From Streptacidiphilus albus JL83 (lineage in GTDB: Bacteria; Actinomycetota; Actinomycetes; Streptomycetales; Streptomycetaceae), in assembly GCF_000744705.1 (NCBI RefSeq), contig NZ_JQML01000001.1, positions 5,652,017-5,716,016 of the forward strand: a stretch of 64,000 nt of DNA, read 5' to 3'. Below are positions 49,946 through 58,180 of this stretch, one piece after another. The translations under genes and the position numbers were made by a program. The notes below the pieces were generated by a model. It did not search any database. It was not told the DNA's origin and was given only the letters and a program-made list of their open reading frames with translations. Position 1 is the first letter of the stretch; each line of letters starts with the position of its first letter.

Positions 49946-51655
49946 ATGCGGAGCGCGAAACTGGGACCGGTCGAGCGGGCGGAGTCGCTCGCCCGGATGG
50001 CCGAACGCGAGCTCGACATCCTCGTCGTCGGCGGCGGGGTGGTCGGGGCGGGGACCGCCCTGGACGCGGTGACCCGCGGGCTGGCGACCGGGATCGTGGA
50101 GGCCAGGGACTGGGCCTCGGGAACGTCCAGCCGGTCCAGCAAGCTGATCCACGGCGGGCTGCGCTATCTGGAGATGCTGGACTTCGCGCTGGTCCAGGAG
50201 GCGCTGAAGGAGCGCGGCCTGCTGCTGCAGACCCTCGCCCCGCACCTGGTGAAGCCGGTGCCCTTCCTCTACCCGCTGCAGCACCGGGGCTGGGAACGGC
50301 CCTATGTGGGATCCGGTATCGCGATGTACGACGCCATGTCGCTGGCCGGCGGCCACGGCCGGGGGCTGCCGGTGCACCGGCACCTGAGCCGCCGTCAGGC
50401 CCTGCGGCAGGCGCCCTGCCTGCGCAAGGACGCGCTGGTCGGCGCGGTGCAGTACTACGACGCGCAGATGGACGACGCCCGGTTCGTGGCCACCCTGGTC
50501 CGCACCGCCGCCGGCTACGGCGCCGCCGCCGCCAACCGGGCCCGGGTGGTGGGCTTCCTCCGCGAGGGCGAGCGGGTGGTCGGCGCCCGGGTCCACGACC
50601 TGGAGCAGGGCGGCGAGTTCGAGGTGCGGGCCCGGCAGGTGGTGAACGCCACCGGGGTGTGGACCGACGAGACCCAGGCGCTGGTCGGCCACCGCGGCCA
50701 GTTCCACGTCCGGGCCTCGAAGGGCATCCACCTGGTGGTGCCGCGCGACCGGATCCACTCCTCGACCGGGCTGATCCTGCGCACCGAGAAGAGCGTCCTC
50801 TTCGTCATCCCCTGGGGCCGGCACTGGATCGTGGGCACCACGGACACCGAGTGGACGCTCGGCAAGGACCACCCGGCCGCCAGCAGCGCCGACATCGAGT
50901 ACCTGCTCGACCATGTGAACGCGGTCCTGGCCACCCCGCTGACCAGGGAGGACGTCGAGGGCGTCTATGCGGGTCTGCGTCCGCTGCTGGCGGGTGAGTC
51001 GGACGCCACCTCCCAGCTGAGCCGTGAGCACGTGGTCCAGCACGCGGTGCCCGGGCTGGTGGTGGTGGCCGGCGGCAAGTACACCACCTACCGGGTGATG
51101 GCCAAGGACGCCGTCGACGAGGCGGTGCACGGACTGGACCAGAGAGTTCCGCCGAGCTGCACCGAGCAGGTGCCGCTGGCCGGGGCCGAGGGCTACCGGG
51201 CACTGTGGAACGGCCGCGCCGAACTGGCCCGGACCAGCGGGCTCCATGTCGCCCGGATCGAGCACCTGCTGAACCGCTACGGCTCGCTGGCCAGTGAGGT
51301 GCTGGCGCTGATCGCCGCCGAACCGGGGCTGGCCGAGCCGCTCGGCGGCGCGGACGACTACCTCCGTGCGGAGGTGGTCCACGCGGCCCGCAGCGAGGGC
51401 GCCCGGCATCTGGACGACGTGCTGGCGCGGCGGACCCGGATCTCGATCGAGACCTTCGACCGGGGCACCGCCTCCATGGTGGAGGTGGCCGAGCTGATGG
51501 CCCGTGAGCTGTCCTGGGACAAGGGGCAGGTGGACCGGGAGGTCGAGCACTACCGGATGCGGGTCGAGGCCGAGCGCGAGTCCCAGCAGCAGCCCGACGA
51601 CCTGACGGCGGACGCCGCCAGACTGGGGGCGGAGGACATCGTCCCGCTCGGATAG
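49946..51655 (+). CDS. glpD: Aerobic glycerol-3-phosphate dehydrogenase
   Basis: FAD enzyme oxidising glycerol-3-phosphate to dihydroxyacetone phosphate at the membrane. The 569-residue protein has the FAD motif ILVVGGGVVGAGTALDAV near residue 27, SSRSSKLIHGGLRYLE near 65, GIHLVVPRDR, VLFVIPWGRHWIVGTTDTEW near 290, and GLRPLLAGE; a C-terminal domain ends at about 520. Neighbours do not include glpF or glpK. GGAGGCAGCC precedes the ATG. Confidence 0.95.
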   Translation: MRSAKLGPVERAESLARMAERELDILVVGGGVVGAGTALDAVTRGLATGIVEARDWASGTSSRSSKLIHGGLRYLEMLDFALVQEALKERGLLLQTLAPHLVKPVPFLYPLQHRGWERPYVGSGIAMYDAMSLAGGHGRGLPVHRHLSRRQALRQAPCLRKDALVGAVQYYDAQMDDARFVATLVRTAAGYGAAAANRARVVGFLREGERVVGARVHDLEQGGEFEVRARQVVNATGVWTDETQALVGHRGQFHVRASKGIHLVVPRDRIHSSTGLILRTEKSVLFVIPWGRHWIVGTTDTEWTLGKDHPAASSADIEYLLDHVNAVLATPLTREDVEGVYAGLRPLLAGESDATSQLSREHVVQHAVPGLVVVAGGKYTTYRVMAKDAVDEAVHGLDQRVPPSCTEQVPLAGAEGYRALWNGRAELARTSGLHVARIEHLLNRYGSLASEVLALIAAEPGLAEPLGGADDYLRAEVVHAARSEGARHLDDVLARRTRISIETFDRGTASMVEVAELMARELSWDKGQVDREVEHYRMRVEAERESQQQPDDLTADAARLGAEDIVPLG

Positions 51656-51798: not shown

Positions 51799-53430
51799 AT
51801 GACCGCTGAACAGGACGCGTCCGGGCGGCTGCTCGCGGGCCGCTACCGGCTGGAGTCCGTCCTGGGCCGGGGCGGTATGGGGACGGTGTGGCGGGCCACC
51901 GACGAGGTGCTCGGCCGGCCGGTCGCGGTGAAGGAACTGCGCTTCGCGGCCGGGGTCGACGAGGACGAGCGGCGCCGGCTGGTGGCCCGCACCCTGACCG
52001 AGGCCAAGGCCATCGCCCGGGTCCGGCACACCGCCGCGGTCACCGTCTACGACGTGGTCGAGGAGGACAACCGGCCGTGGATCGTGATGGAGCTGGTGGA
52101 GTCCCGCTCGCTGAGCGAGGTCATCAACATCGAGGGGGTGCTGCCGCCGAGGCGGGCCGCCGAGATCGGGCTGGAGCTGCTGGCGGTGCTCGGCCAGGCG
52201 CACCGCGCCGGGATCCTGCACCGTGACGTCAAACCGTCCAACATCCTGATCGGCCACGACGGGCGGGTGGTGCTGACCGACTTCGGCATCGCCCGGGTCG
52301 AGGGCGACCCCTCGGTGACCTCGACCGGGATGCTGGTCGGCGCGCCCTCGTACATCTCGCCGGAGCGGGCGCGCGGCCGGATACCGGGCGCACCGGCGGA
52401 CCTGTGGTCGCTCGGGGCGACGCTGTACGCGATGGTCGAGGGGCGGCCGCCGTACGAGAAGGGCTCGGCGCTGTCCACGCTGACGGCGGTGATGACCGAG
52501 GACCTGCTCCCGCCGGTCAACGGCGGCGCGCTGACCCCGGTCATCGCCGGGCTGCTGCGGAAGGACCCGGAGCAGCGCTTCGACGAGGCCATCACCCGCC
52601 GACTGCTGACGCGGGTGGCCTCCGAGGCGGACACCCAGCCCTACGAGCAGTCCTACGAGCAGCCCTACGAGCAGCCCTACGAGCAGCCGTACGCACGCTC
52701 CTACGAGCCCTCGCGGACGCCGACCGCGGTCGGTTCCAGCGGTTCCGACCCGACCCAGGAGGGCACGGCCGCGCTCGCGCTGCCGCCGGAGGAGCGCTTC
52801 GTCGAGCCGCTGCGGCAGCCCGCGCCCGTTCCGGCGCCCGCCCGCCGCTCCAGCCGCCGCCGGCGCTCCGGCAAGCTGCTGATCGGGCTGCTGGTGCTGC
52901 TGCTGGTGGCCGGCGGCGGGGTCTGGGTGGCGCTGGCCCAGGCCCAGCGGCACAACGCCGGGACCGGCTCGGACGGGGCGTCGGCCGCCGCCCCGGCGGG
53001 CTACCAGCGGGTGGACGGTCCGGGCGGCTCGACCGTCGAGATCCCCGTGGGCTGGGTCCGGACCCGGGTCTCGGCCGACCGCTCCAAGTTCCAGGGCCCG
53101 GCCGGGACGCTGATCGTGGACTGGACCGACAACCCCGGGAACAGCGCCCTGACCGGTGTCCGGGCCGAGGCGGCCCGGACCTCCGGCAGCTTCGCCGACT
53201 ACCGGCAGCTGGAGCTGAAGACGGTCGACTACCGCGACGGCTGGGACGCCGCCGACTGGGAGTGGACCTACACCGGCAGCAACGGCACCGCCCTGCGCGC
53301 GACGAGCCGGTACGCCATCACCGACAGCCGCGACGGCTTCTCGCTCTACTGGACCGCATCGGCCGCGACCTGGGACGGGACCCGGAACAAGGAGCTGCTG
53401 CGCACCTTCGAGGACAGCTTCCAGCCCTAA
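51799..53430 (+). CDS. Membrane Ser/Thr protein kinase (first of cluster)
   Basis: A 543-residue Hanks-type kinase. The glycine loop GRGGMGTVW lies near 24, the ATP lysine in VAVKEL near 46, the catalytic loop LHRDVKPSNIL near 143, DFG near 162 and SPERARG near 185. A juxtamembrane Tyr-rich repeat (residues 281-304) and a basic patch precede one membrane helix (LLIGLLVLLLVAGGGVWVAL). The external domain of about 165 residues ends with WEWTYTGSNGTALRA and resembles that of the kinase at 54889. It is followed after 50 bases by a pseudokinase gene. Confidence 0.93.
   Translation: MTAEQDASGRLLAGRYRLESVLGRGGMGTVWRATDEVLGRPVAVKELRFAAGVDEDERRRLVARTLTEAKAIARVRHTAAVTVYDVVEEDNRPWIVMELVESRSLSEVINIEGVLPPRRAAEIGLELLAVLGQAHRAGILHRDVKPSNILIGHDGRVVLTDFGIARVEGDPSVTSTGMLVGAPSYISPERARGRIPGAPADLWSLGATLYAMVEGRPPYEKGSALSTLTAVMTEDLLPPVNGGALTPVIAGLLRKDPEQRFDEAITRRLLTRVASEADTQPYEQSYEQPYEQPYEQPYARSYEPSRTPTAVGSSGSDPTQEGTAALALPPEERFVEPLRQPAPVPAPARRSSRRRRSGKLLIGLLVLLLVAGGGVWVALAQAQRHNAGTGSDGASAAAPAGYQRVDGPGGSTVEIPVGWVRTRVSADRSKFQGPAGTLIVDWTDNPGNSALTGVRAEAARTSGSFADYRQLELKTVDYRDGWDAADWEWTYTGSNGTALRATSRYAITDSRDGFSLYWTASAATWDGTRNKELLRTFEDSFQP
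52639..52710 (+). repeat. 12-bp tandem repeat in the first kinase gene
   Basis: Six 12-base units with consensus CCCTACGAGCAG encode PYEQ-SYEQ-PYEQ-PYEQ-PYAR-SYEP. Being a multiple of three, unit gain or loss would keep frame. It lies in the cytoplasmic linker just before the membrane helix. Confidence 0.9.
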
Positions 53431-53480
53431 GGTTACGAGGGACAGGCACGGATCGGCACGGCGCGAGGCAGGGGGACGGT

Positions 53481-54737
53481 GTGACACGGGCAGCGTCCCC
53501 GGACGAGGGCACGGCCGACGGCCGGCTGCTGGCCGGCCGCTACCGGCTGACCGGCCGGGCGCGCGGGACCGGGGTCGCCGCCGTCGACGTCCGCAGCGGC
53601 GCCGAGGTGCAACTGGACGCCGTCCCGCTGCCGGTGACGGTCACCCCGTTCGACCAGGACCTGCCGGCCGGGAGCGACGAGACGGCGGCCCGCGCGCTCA
53701 CCCAGACCGCCTTCGTCACCCAGGTGGTGCCCGACCATCCGCGGCTCAGCCAGGTCTTCCAGGTGTTCGCCGAGGACGGCTACCTGTGGGTCGCCGGCGA
53801 GGCGGTGCCGGGGGCTCCGCTGGCGGCGCTGCTGGAACGCGGACCGCTCTCCGCCTACCGGGTCGCCGAGCTGGCGCACGACCTGGTCGCGGCGCTGCGG
53901 GCGGTGCACGCGATGGGCCTGGTGCACGGCAATCTGACGGCGGACACGGTCACCGTCTGCGAGGACGGGACGGCGCTGCTCGGCGGGTTGGTGGTCGGCG
54001 CCGCACAGGAGGCGCTGTGCGGTGGTCCCGGCGCCGGGACGCCGGGGGCGGGCGTGCCGGAGTCGCCGTGGAATCCGGCGCGGGTCAGGGCGCGGGACGC
54101 CCGCGCCGTCATCGTCGGTCCGGTGTCCGAGCGTTGGGCGCCGGAACAGGCCGGACCCGGTACCGCGCGGGAGGCGGCGGCGGAGGTCGCGGCCGGGACC
54201 GCCGCCGGTCGGCCGGTCGGACCGGCGGCGGACACCTGGGCGCTGGGCGCGCTGCTCCACCGGGCGCTGACCGGCGGGCCGTTGCTGCCGGAGCAGGACG
54301 CCGCGCACCAGGGCCGGGTGCGCCCCGCCGACCGGCGGACGCTGCCGGGGCCCTCGAAGGCCGGACCGGCGAAGGAGTTGGGCCCGCTCGGCCCGCTGGT
54401 GCTGCGGCTGCTGGCGGTGGACCCGGAGGCGCGTCCGGCCCTCGCCGAGGTGCAGGAGGAACTGCGCAGACTGCTGCTCCGGGCTCCGGAGCCGGTGGAC
54501 CAGGACGCGGTGTCGGCCGTGGCCGAACTGCTGCCGCCGCCCCGCCGGGCGGCCCTCGGCGGTCGCCGCCGGACCGGGGCAGGGCCCGGGGGAGCACTGT
54601 CGGCGGAGCCGTCGGAAACCCGGCACCACCACGCCGCACCGGCACGGCACCCGGCCCGACTGGGCGCGGTACTGGTCGGCGGAATCCTGGTGCTGGTCCT
54701 GTTGCTGCTCGTGGCCGTGGTGCTGGCGGCCGGCTGA
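53481..54737 (+). CDS. Tail-anchored pseudokinase
   Basis: A 418-residue kinase-fold protein from GTG 53481 (MTRAASPDEGTADGRLLAGR). The fold is recognisable (LAGRYRL, LVAALRAVHAMGLVHGNL, ADTWALGALLHRALTGG), but catalytic residues are gone: the glycine loop is GRARGTGVA, the lysine strand reads VQLDAVPLP, HRD is HGN near 147, and DFG is GGL near 167. A Pro/Ala-rich linker leads to one C-terminal membrane helix (LGAVLVGGILVLVLLLLVAV), so it is tail-anchored with no external domain. It lies between two active-looking kinases, suggesting a scaffold or allosteric partner. Confidence 0.85.
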   Translation: MTRAASPDEGTADGRLLAGRYRLTGRARGTGVAAVDVRSGAEVQLDAVPLPVTVTPFDQDLPAGSDETAARALTQTAFVTQVVPDHPRLSQVFQVFAEDGYLWVAGEAVPGAPLAALLERGPLSAYRVAELAHDLVAALRAVHAMGLVHGNLTADTVTVCEDGTALLGGLVVGAAQEALCGGPGAGTPGAGVPESPWNPARVRARDARAVIVGPVSERWAPEQAGPGTAREAAAEVAAGTAAGRPVGPAADTWALGALLHRALTGGPLLPEQDAAHQGRVRPADRRTLPGPSKAGPAKELGPLGPLVLRLLAVDPEARPALAEVQEELRRLLLRAPEPVDQDAVSAVAELLPPPRRAALGGRRRTGAGPGGALSAEPSETRHHHAAPARHPARLGAVLVGGILVLVLLLLVAVVLAAG

Positions 54738-56788: not shown

Positions 56789-58180
56789 ATGGTCGTTTCC
56801 GCAATTCCCACTCCGGATGTCGTGGTGATCGGGCTGGGGCCGGGCGGCGAAGAGGTTGCCGGACGGCTCGCGGACGCCGGGCTCGACGTGGTCGGCGTCG
56901 ACGACCGGCTGGTCGGCGGCGAGTGCCCGTACTGGGGCTGCATCCCTTCGAAGATCATGGTCAGGGCCGGCGACCTGGTCGCCGAGGCGCACCGGGTGCC
57001 GGGTCGGGCGGGGATCTGCCGGGTGCAGCCCGACTGGCGTCCGGTCGCCCGGACCATCAGGGCCGCCACCGACGACTGGAACGACAAGCTCGCCGTGGAC
57101 CGGCTGACCTCGCGCGGCGGGCGTTTCCTGCGCGGCACCGGACGGTTGACCGGGCCGCGCGAGGTGACCGTGCTGCACCGCGAGGGCGAGACCGAGACCG
57201 AGACGGTGCTGCGCCCGCGCCGGGGCGTGGTGCTGGCGGTGGGCTCCCGGCCGTCCGCGCCGCCCGTTCCCGGCCTGCTGGGGACCCCGTTCTGGACCAA
57301 CCGCGAGCTGGTGGAGGCCGCCGAGCTGCCGGAGTCGCTGCTGGTGCTGGGCGGCGGTGCGATCGGACTGGAACTGGGACAGGCCTGGCAGCGGATGGGC
57401 TGCGCGGTGACCGTGCTGGAGGCGCAGCCGCGGCTGCTGCCGATGGAGGAGCCGGAGACCTCGGAGCTGCTGACGCAGGTGCTCACCACCGAGGGTCTTT
57501 CGATCCACACCGGGGCGGAGGCCGCCTCGGTCACCCACCACGACGGACGGTTCACCGTCACCTGCCGCCGGGGCGAGCGCTTCGCCGCCGAGCGGCTGCT
57601 GGTCGCCACCGGACGCCGGGTCGACCTGGACCGGGTGGGCGCGGGCGTGCTCGGGGTGCCACCGGGGGCCCGCTCGCTGCCGGTGGACGAGCGGATGCGG
57701 GTGCCCGGAGCGCCGGGGGTGTGGGCGGTCGGCGACGCCACCGGCAAGGGCGCGTTCACCCATGTCGCCATGTACCAGGCGGACATCGCGGTGCGGACGG
57801 TCCTCGGGCAGGGCGGTCTGTCGGCCGAGTACCACGCGGTGCCGCGGGTGACCTTCACCGATCCGGAGGTCGGCGCCGTCGGGCTGACCGAGGCGCAGGC
57901 CCGGACCCTGGGGGCGGCGGTCCGGGTCGGTCGGGCCGATCTCGCCGACACCGCCCGGGCCCTGGTCCACGGCCCCGGCAGCGCGGGCTTCGTCAAGCTG
58001 GTCGCGGCCGACGGCGTACTGGTGGGCGCGACCTCGGCGGGCCCGACCGGCGGCGAGGTGCTGGGCCTGCTGACCCTCGCGGTCCGGAGCCGGACGCCGC
58101 TGGCCGAGCTGCGGTCGACGATCTGGGCCTACCCGACCTTCCACCGCGCGGTCGGCGCGGCGCTGGCCTCGCTCGACTGA
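56789..58180 (+). CDS. FAD-dependent pyridine nucleotide-disulfide oxidoreductase
   Basis: A 463-residue flavoprotein. FAD motif VVVIGLGPGGEEVAGRL near 12, redox cysteines CPYWGC near 46, NAD(P) motif LLVLGGGAIGLELGQAW near 188, and GVWAVGDATGKGAF near 309 place it in the lipoamide-dehydrogenase/mercuric-reductase group. The usual C-terminal H-P-T-x-x-E is YPTFHRAV, so the proton-relay His/Glu pair is absent and it is not a standard lipoamide dehydrogenase. Quinone, metal or low-molecular-weight disulfide reduction is possible. GGGAG lies 7 bases before the ATG. Confidence 0.88.
   Translation: MVVSAIPTPDVVVIGLGPGGEEVAGRLADAGLDVVGVDDRLVGGECPYWGCIPSKIMVRAGDLVAEAHRVPGRAGICRVQPDWRPVARTIRAATDDWNDKLAVDRLTSRGGRFLRGTGRLTGPREVTVLHREGETETETVLRPRRGVVLAVGSRPSAPPVPGLLGTPFWTNRELVEAAELPESLLVLGGGAIGLELGQAWQRMGCAVTVLEAQPRLLPMEEPETSELLTQVLTTEGLSIHTGAEAASVTHHDGRFTVTCRRGERFAAERLLVATGRRVDLDRVGAGVLGVPPGARSLPVDERMRVPGAPGVWAVGDATGKGAFTHVAMYQADIAVRTVLGQGGLSAEYHAVPRVTFTDPEVGAVGLTEAQARTLGAAVRVGRADLADTARALVHGPGSAGFVKLVAADGVLVGATSAGPTGGEVLGLLTLAVRSRTPLAELRSTIWAYPTFHRAVGAALASLD

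Follow-up and report, generated by a model that had tools for sequence, protein, structure and literature searches.

A 64,000-nucleotide stretch from the 9.9-Mb single-contig genome of Streptacidiphilus albus JL83 (contig NZ_JQML01000001.1, positions 5,652,017 to 5,716,016; hereafter the window) contains a gene for a kinase-like protein that has lost the residues required for catalysis. This pseudokinase gene (PSK) starts with GTG and has the sequence GGGGGA at positions 53471–53476, just ahead of the start codon. It begins exactly 50 bases after the stop codon of a first kinase gene (KA) and ends 151 bases before the start of a second one (KB). Both KA and KB contain all catalytic motifs. An earlier interpretation made from the letters alone (the sequence-only reading) had described PSK as a pseudokinase between two membrane kinases and had proposed that it serves them as a scaffold or allosteric regulator. 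Its coordinates, strand and frame, the 50-base gap after an intact kinase gene and the second intact kinase gene downstream all hold. The features of the locus are collected in Table 1, in which the designations glpD-like and LPD are presumed from family knowledge.

Table 1. Features of the PSK locus, in window coordinates
Feature	Position	Strand	Basis or remark
glpD-like gene	49946..51655	+	lies ahead of the kinase array in most of the loci inspected; no such gene found in L123, L124, L134
KA, active kinase, 543 aa, membrane helix and extracytoplasmic domain	51799..53430	+	by gene order the counterpart of PkaH (SCO4775)
PSK, pseudokinase gene, 418 aa	53481..54737	+	GTG start; stop codon ends at 54737
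Pseudokinase domain of PSK, about residues 14–336	53520..54488	+	Pfam, AlphaFold model, structure alignment
D46 at the β3 Lys position	53616..53618	+	Arg there in 74/95 unbroken orthologues
Q94 at the PknB Asp76 dimer position	53760..53762	+	Asp in 292/294 active-kinase rows
H149-G150-N151 replacing HRD	53925..53933	+	motif alignment
C160	53958..53960	+	Cys in 95/95 unbroken orthologues
G168-G169-L170 replacing DFG	53982..53990	+	motif alignment
C180	54018..54020	+	Cys in 92/95 unbroken orthologues
Residues 203–222: R203...R208...G213, then ERWAPE (E217–E222)	54087..54146	+	highly conserved, family-specific; APE Glu kept
C-terminal membrane helix of PSK, residues 391–417	54651..54731	+	AlphaFold model, hydrophobicity
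KB, active kinase, 607 aa	54889..56712	+	by position related to PkaD/PkaI/PkaJ
LPD, dihydrolipoyl-dehydrogenase-like gene after the array	56789..58180	+	gene order

Predicted fold and lost catalytic motifs

PSK gives a partial match to the Pfam family Pkinase (38.2 bits at a cut-off of 31.7), and a search of NCBIfam returned no match above the cut-off. An AlphaFold model computed with a 42-sequence alignment (predicted local distance difference test, pLDDT, 81; predicted template modelling score, pTM, 0.77) consists of a two-lobe kinase, a low-confidence linker (residues 358–390) and one helix. Foldseek searches with this model returned the Staphylococcus aureus kinase Stk1/PknB as top matches (E = 9.1e-12), and VIA-align superimposed it on MST3 (Z = 24.0) and on PknA from Mycobacterium tuberculosis (Z = 23.5, 2.9 Å over 259 residues). 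Solved kinases cover PSK from about residue 15 to 352. With the APE glutamate, the αF aspartate and the C-lobe arginine kept, the modelled protein has a Hanks-type kinase fold. The transmembrane kinases PknB, StkP and Stk1 share this fold and also the membrane topology of PSK, but are catalytically complete. The single C-terminal membrane helix of the sequence-only reading reappears in the model, and the best 19-residue hydrophobic stretch of PSK stops three residues short of the C-terminus.

The catalytic machinery is missing from this fold. The segment corresponding to the glycine loop is absent from PSK, the β3, HRD and DFG sites carry the replacements listed in Table 1, and the positions of the catalytic-loop lysine and asparagine are occupied by T153 and T156. 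We collected 103 different PSK orthologue sequences, of which 95 are unbroken, three run into contig ends and five were judged broken in frame. None of the 95 unbroken orthologues contains the β3 lysine, the HRD aspartate, or the catalytic-loop lysine or asparagine, and 94 of them have Asn at the site of the HRD aspartate (position 151). DFG is likewise absent from all 95 aligned sequences. An alignment of 42 sequences (A1) shows Asp at position 168 in six rows, yet the next residue is invariantly Gly, never Phe. Since the β3 lysine, the HRD aspartate and the DFG aspartate are all lost, PSK is, as judged from its sequence, not a catalytic Hanks-type Ser/Thr kinase. The sequence-only reading had recognised the fold and the losses of the glycine loop, the β3 lysine, HRD and DFG; the structure prediction and kinase alignment that it named as checks were run and returned a kinase fold.

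The structural residues of the fold persisted in the same orthologues (APE Glu in 93/95, αF Asp in 95/95 and C-lobe Arg in 94/95). The activation segment is preserved too: R203, R208, G213, E217, R218 and W219 are each found in 94 of the 95 sequences.

Intactness and selection

Eight sequences were left out of all counts based on 95 rows: L042, L047 and L099 because they run into contig ends, and L059, L069, L081, L101 and L125 because they were judged broken (L### are locus labels, G### genome labels). For L081 and L059 this judgement relies on odd C-terminal parts. At the other three broken loci the neighbouring genes are split too, and we therefore suspect sequence quality rather than decay of PSK.

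The ratio of nonsynonymous to synonymous substitution rates (dN/dS) of PSK has a median of 0.23 and a maximum of 0.50, so that all 22 close pairs lie at or below 0.50. The corresponding medians are 0.09 over 22 KA pairs and 0.07 over 21 glpD pairs; a median for KB was unusable, as KB pairs below 60% identity are paralogue mismatches. Alignment A1 retains 41 invariant positions across its 42 sequences, which descend to 41% identity with the window PSK. These data indicate that PSK is under purifying selection and is not decaying. Frameshift decay in relatives, which the sequence-only reading had named as one finding that would overturn its hypothesis, is thus not what the intact orthologues present.

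PSK and KA as the conserved pair

The order guaB-glpD-KA-PSK-KB-LPD is repeated, with variations, across the family Streptomycetaceae. To define the neighbours of PSK we considered only kinases, glpD, guaB and LPD on the same strand, and called a kinase KA-type if its best BLAST match was KA of the window. The nearest recognised gene upstream of PSK is a KA-type kinase in 100 of the 100 loci with an upstream gene in view; the remaining three of the 103 loci begin at the locus edge. The downstream side is more variable. Of the 103 loci, 80 have a kinase next, six have LPD and four another piece of the same, broken gene, while 13 have none of these genes within the stretch. The conserved unit is the KA-PSK pair, not a kinase-PSK-kinase sandwich. 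The position between two kinases is therefore a true description of the window and not a conserved state, and of the three-gene order that the sequence-only reading proposed to follow, the first junction is invariant and the second is not. We accordingly rejected a regulator that serves KA and KB symmetrically. The more general part of that proposal survives, since a dead, membrane-tethered kinase fold beside active kinases makes a scaffolding or allosteric role natural.

The kinase that follows PSK in L139 (12419–14197, genome G027) is itself degenerate in the profile alignment, with Ala for the HRD aspartate and Thr for the catalytic-loop lysine, and is possibly a second pseudokinase.

Two forms of PSK

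The window PSK ends at its membrane helix, and most of its orthologues do not. More than 60 residues follow the helix in 76 of the 95 unbroken sequences, at most 15 in 18 sequences including that of the window, and 45 in L132. The claim that PSK carries no sensor domain is hence correct for the lineage of the window and incorrect for the family. An ectodomain test was passed by 72 of the 103 sequences. A model of the PSK ectodomain (33 sequences, pLDDT 87.6) is PsbP-like (Foldseek against PsbP, E = 1.3e-7). Neither the L079 PSK ectodomain nor the tail of KB in the window matched a Pfam family, and the tail of KA gave one match, below cut-off. In a tree of ectodomains from the array, those of PSK form their own group (15/15 rows, support 100/100). 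They are not nested within the ectodomains of KA or KB, and we rejected recent capture of the domain from a neighbouring kinase.

The two forms also differ in the former nucleotide pocket. Of two pocket arginines, one at the β3 site and one in the HRx motif, all 76 ectodomain-bearing orthologues have at least one and 73 have both, whereas neither is present in any of the 18 tail-anchored sequences. The β3 arginine alone occurs in 74/76 versus 0/18. Tail-anchored orthologues have D, E, H or F at the β3 site, and HGN or HLA at the HRD site.

A further difference concerns residues that we take to form the back-to-back dimer contact of PknB, namely R10, L33 and D76. The contact role of L33 is backed by the titles of structure entries and by the alignment row of 3f69. 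At the D76 position, Asp is missing from 17 of the 18 tail-anchored sequences and present in all 77 others including L132. The R10 position retains Arg in 94 of the 95 unbroken orthologues. At the L33 position the pseudokinases never have Leu (0/95) and mostly have Ser (90/95), as against Leu in 263 and Val in 25 of 294 active-kinase rows, a set that includes some loci twice. For MviN, the accessible text of the survey of bacterial pseudokinases by O'Boyle et al. describes the equivalents of two such dimer residues as analogous to their counterparts elsewhere among bacterial kinases (PMC12599244).

The activation loop, measured from the DFG position to ERW, has a median length of 46 residues in tail-anchored and 295 residues (46 to 571) in ectodomain-bearing sequences. 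Even the 46-residue loop is longer than that of KA by hand count, and represents an extension rather than a deletion. The spacing between β3 and the H(P/A)xL motif has medians of 41 and 60 residues in the two forms and is 31 in KA (counted by hand), which corresponds to β3-αC inserts of about +10 and +29 residues relative to KA. Strict coupling of loop length to the other losses was rejected, since some ectodomain-bearing forms also have 46-residue loops.

Two sequences blur the division. L133 is tail-anchored yet retains D76, and L132 is an intermediate that, with its 45 residues after the helix, retains the HRN arginine and D76 and has Thr at β3. In a tree of loci built from guaB, glpD, KA and LPD, with two of the loci L148–L151 as outgroup, the window belongs to a clade of ten tail-anchored genomes (support 98/97). 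The ectodomain-bearing sequences form a second clade (100/99), which also includes G033, a genome without PSK. L139 is tail-anchored with the same losses, sits with L132 in an open fork at the base of this tree and has the longest branch in the PSK tree. The co-loss counts given above are not independent observations, as they represent one clade plus L139, and the well-supported branches force only one change. The ectodomain, the arginines and D76 appear to have been lost together in a single clade, with the L139 lineage as a possible second case. As to polarity, a single gain of the ectodomain in the Streptomyces-like clade is at least as parsimonious as two or three losses. We nevertheless lean to loss, because the active paralogues carry the domain.

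Distribution and origin

Orthologues of PSK occur in 53 of the 61 Streptomycetaceae genomes sampled. A single-sequence search found 52 of these at E 1e-20, with one match each, and a profile search added a clear orthologue in G088 (879.6 bits), one of the nine genomes missed by the first search. The other eight genomes gave profile scores of at most 152 bits; they are the three and four genomes sampled from two genera of the family (g2 and g4) and G033. We rejected the possibility that g2 and g4 hide a pseudokinase elsewhere, since their best profile matches, in G031, G030 and G064 (about 150 bits), are intact kinases. The match in G014 (100 bits) is likewise a kinase with VAVK, HRD, DFG and APE intact. 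Either a natural loss or a gap in the assembly may explain why G033 has no PSK. Outside the family, the four genomes examined from the same order or class (L148–L151) have no kinase within about 13 kb downstream of glpD.

All 26 PSK rows in the PSK tree fall on one side of one branch (support 100/100). For this reason PSK most simply arose once, inside the guaB-glpD array and within the Streptomycetaceae. The arrays of two g2 and two g4 loci (L141, L142, L146 and L147) consist of glpD followed by four intact kinases, with no pseudokinase among them. We considered that PSK may derive from the second kinase of such arrays. The PSK ectodomain profile matches position 2 best in L141 (46.5 bits versus 21.0 and 16.2 for the two others matched) and positions 2 and 4 about equally in L146 (18.8 and 19.3 bits). 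PSK does not group with position 2 in the tree of kinase domains or in that of ectodomains, and we did not adopt this derivation. The four-kinase arrays of g2 and g4 do provide a ready comparison for the contribution of PSK.

PSK, SCO4776 and ActPs2

The sequence-only reading had considered PSK not to be a described system. This assessment does not stand, since the family appears to have been described already in two unconnected places. The first is the SCO4775–4779 cluster of Streptomyces coelicolor, which Ladwig et al. (2015) treated as five genes for eukaryotic-type Ser/Thr protein kinases (eSTPKs; PMC4416010, accessible text). In five-gene Streptomyces loci such as that of S. scabiei (L079), the order is glpD-KA-PSK-KB-KB-KB with the dead kinase second, and because of this position we infer that PSK is the positional counterpart and orthologue of SCO4776, which is placed by gene order rather than by its own sequence. 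PSK of the window likewise comes second in the guaB-glpD array, immediately behind the first kinase, and belongs to the same single clade. The two arrays differ in size, with three kinase-fold genes in the window and five in SCO4775–4779. The Streptomyces orthologues are also mostly longer, with the ectodomain, a long activation loop and both pocket arginines, in contrast to the window PSK that stops at its membrane helix.

According to the accessible text, deletion of all five genes leads to defective spores, and SCO4776 shows constitutive transcription (PMC4416010). Aberrant spores and raised vancomycin sensitivity result from a second copy of SCO4776, pkaH, pkaD or pkaJ, with pkaI as the exception (PMC4416010). 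The word pseudokinase is absent from the main text of that article as accessible, in which SCO4776 is handled as an eSTPK (PMC4416010). The SCO4776 protein has been detected in a proteomics study (PMC9739823, accessible text).

The second place is ActPs2, an actinobacterial family named by O'Boyle et al. (2025). As outlined in the accessible text, almost all members have Arg for the β3 lysine, combined with an HRN motif, deletion or loss of DFG in most, and a C-terminal membrane region (PMC12599244). About 90% of them contain a 32-residue β3-αC insert and about 90% a 250-residue extension of the activation loop; in an AlphaFold3 model, contacts to ATP were proposed for R42 and R177 (PMC12599244). 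The Streptomyces orthologues of PSK as a group fit this description: they share the β3 arginine, the β3-αC insert and the long activation loop. The named representative of ActPs2 is WP_053198479.1, with which the orthologues were compared by the numbering of residue 42. Their β3 arginine is residue 42 in 60 of 67 orthologues with a DDYAGR-like start, assuming one start residue before that core, and their HRN arginine lies at residues 146–179. The window PSK shares the actinobacterial origin, N151 in place of the HRD aspartate, the lost DFG and a membrane helix after the kinase domain. It deviates by having D46 instead of the β3 arginine, G150 instead of the HRN arginine, and a β3-αC insert and an activation loop that are both short.

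The accessible text states the functions of the pseudokinase families, ActPs2 included, as unknown; the section on ActPs2 gives neither gene context nor function, and the word Streptomyces is absent from the main text (PMC12599244). We found no paper in the open-access literature that joins SCO4776 with ActPs2. What the present analysis adds is this connection, the pairing with KA, the two-form structure of the family and, within it, the stripped form of the window lineage, which is predicted to be tail-anchored and which lacks the PsbP-like ectodomain, the pocket arginines and mostly also the dimer aspartate. Joining ActPs2 with the genetically handled SCO4775–4779 cluster makes an orphan family testable in a laboratory strain. 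If the argument from gene order holds, one of the five sporulation-disturbing "kinases" cannot phosphorylate by any known kinase mechanism.

Another membrane-anchored dead kinase fold is that of EssB/YukC, which is an assembly platform (PMC12599244, accessible text). Unlike PSK, it belongs to type VII secretion and its activation loop is reduced (PMC12599244); its locus and lineage are different as well.

Proposed function

How could a kinase fold without catalytic residues contribute to this array? We consider it about an even bet (a probability of roughly 0.5) that PSK represents a family of non-catalytic membrane adaptors, kept as a pair with KA, that bind KA or its substrates. PSK would transfer no phosphate and would be tethered to the membrane through its C-terminal helix. 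The kept C-lobe and the rewired activation segment (R203, R208, G213 and ERWAPE) would offer a surface to which the adjacent KA (PkaH type) or the cell-wall substrates of KA bind, and such binding would set the amount of kinase or substrate available at the membrane. Whether in an adaptor or a titration mode, binding is the easiest explanation for an extra-copy effect exerted by a gene without catalytic residues. The Streptomyces form may add a sensing and dimerising layer through its PsbP-like ectodomain, its two pocket arginines and the R10/D76 dimer pair. Without ectodomain, arginines and D76, the tail-anchored form of the window would be a plain membrane adaptor. The tail-anchored branch can thus be regarded as a natural experiment: what remains suggests that the activation-segment face does the work, because this face is kept after the supposedly ATP-binding arginines, the outer domain and the dimer aspartate are gone.

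A more specific version of this proposal is tentative and may well prove wrong. It holds that the family operates in two modes, one a sensing unit with ectodomain, arginines and R10/D76, and the other a tail-anchored mode that keeps only the activation-segment face next to KA and was reached at least once, perhaps twice (in the window clade and in the L139 lineage); the "overbalancing of phosphorylation" by extra copies of SCO4776 would then be non-catalytic. If this were true, PSK would be, to our knowledge, the first pseudokinase in the building of the Streptomyces spore wall.

Several observations weigh against an adaptor that works with KA. The arrays of g2 and g4 run without a pseudokinase, so PSK is dispensable to such arrays, and G033 (L145, close to G019) keeps glpD and KA with neither PSK nor another kinase, on a contig of 15.6 kb. 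PSK evolves faster than KA. The five genes of S. coelicolor are transcribed separately according to reverse transcription PCR (PMC4416010, accessible text), which makes the neighbourhood weaker evidence for a partnership than an operon would be. In the two-hybrid passage on PkaI, the kinases mentioned include PkaA and PkaD but not SCO4776 (PMC4416010), and the literature examined, as far as accessible, reports no interaction of PSK with KA, KB or a substrate. Finally, the absence of catalytic residues from SCO4776 itself is presumed from the gene order in other Streptomyces.

Four other explanations were weighed against the membrane adaptor. PSK could be a ligand-binding pseudokinase: its β3 and HRN arginines would retain a phosphate-bearing ligand, a nucleotide or some other, in the pocket, and this binding would switch a partner surface. 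The near-universal arginines of the ectodomain-bearing orthologues argue for this idea, as does the agreement of their β3 arginine with R42 of the AlphaFold3 ATP model, given the assumed start residue (PMC12599244, accessible text). The window PSK and the 17 other tail-anchored sequences have neither arginine, and the glycine loop and DFG are gone. Ligand binding could therefore apply at most to the ectodomain-bearing form and not to the window PSK. Since the activation segment and the C-lobe, not the pocket, are kept in all forms, a shared function probably does not centre on the pocket, and we regard ligand binding as an unlikely general explanation.

Still less probable is a phospho-scaffold, in which a neighbouring kinase would phosphorylate the juxtamembrane tail of PSK for recruitment of an FHA-domain protein. 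The precedent is the MviN pseudokinase (ActPs3) of M. tuberculosis, which resembles PSK in being a dead kinase fold that is linked to the membrane and connected with cell-wall synthesis, and whose phosphorylated tail binds FhaA (PMC12599244, accessible text). PSK is also membrane-bound, beside kinases and in a cell-wall-linked locus. However, the mycobacterial domain is part of MviN and has an activation-loop deletion as its hallmark (PMC12599244), whereas PSK is a separate protein with an extended activation loop. Moreover, residues 337–392 contain no invariant or nearly invariant Ser or Thr across the 42 sequences of A1.

A new catalytic activity on the kinase fold, as in SelO and SidJ, seems very improbable. 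Dead kinases with other chemistry do exist (PMC12599244, accessible text), and the two family-specific cysteines C160 and C180 (Table 1), which have no Cys counterpart in KA and KB of the window, would be candidates for a catalytic role. SelO and SidJ, in contrast to PSK with its absent lysine and lost DFG, keep the VAIK lysine and the DxG aspartate (PMC12599244). C160 and C180 are close to the former active site in sequence, and a redox or metal role for them is possible.

That PSK is a pseudogene in decay, left over from a kinase and now without function, could be argued from the faster evolution of PSK relative to its neighbours, the additional losses in the tail-anchored branch, the five sequences judged broken and the single TGA in each of the matches in G006 and G086, but has a negligible probability and is in our judgement refuted for the family by the intact frames and the purifying selection described above.

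PSK may not be the only degenerate kinase of its host. Three further stretches of the genome (G000:C1, positions 7756728–7757210, 9302074–9302619 and 4833517–4833771) gave weak Pkinase matches below the cut-off and are possibly other pseudokinases.

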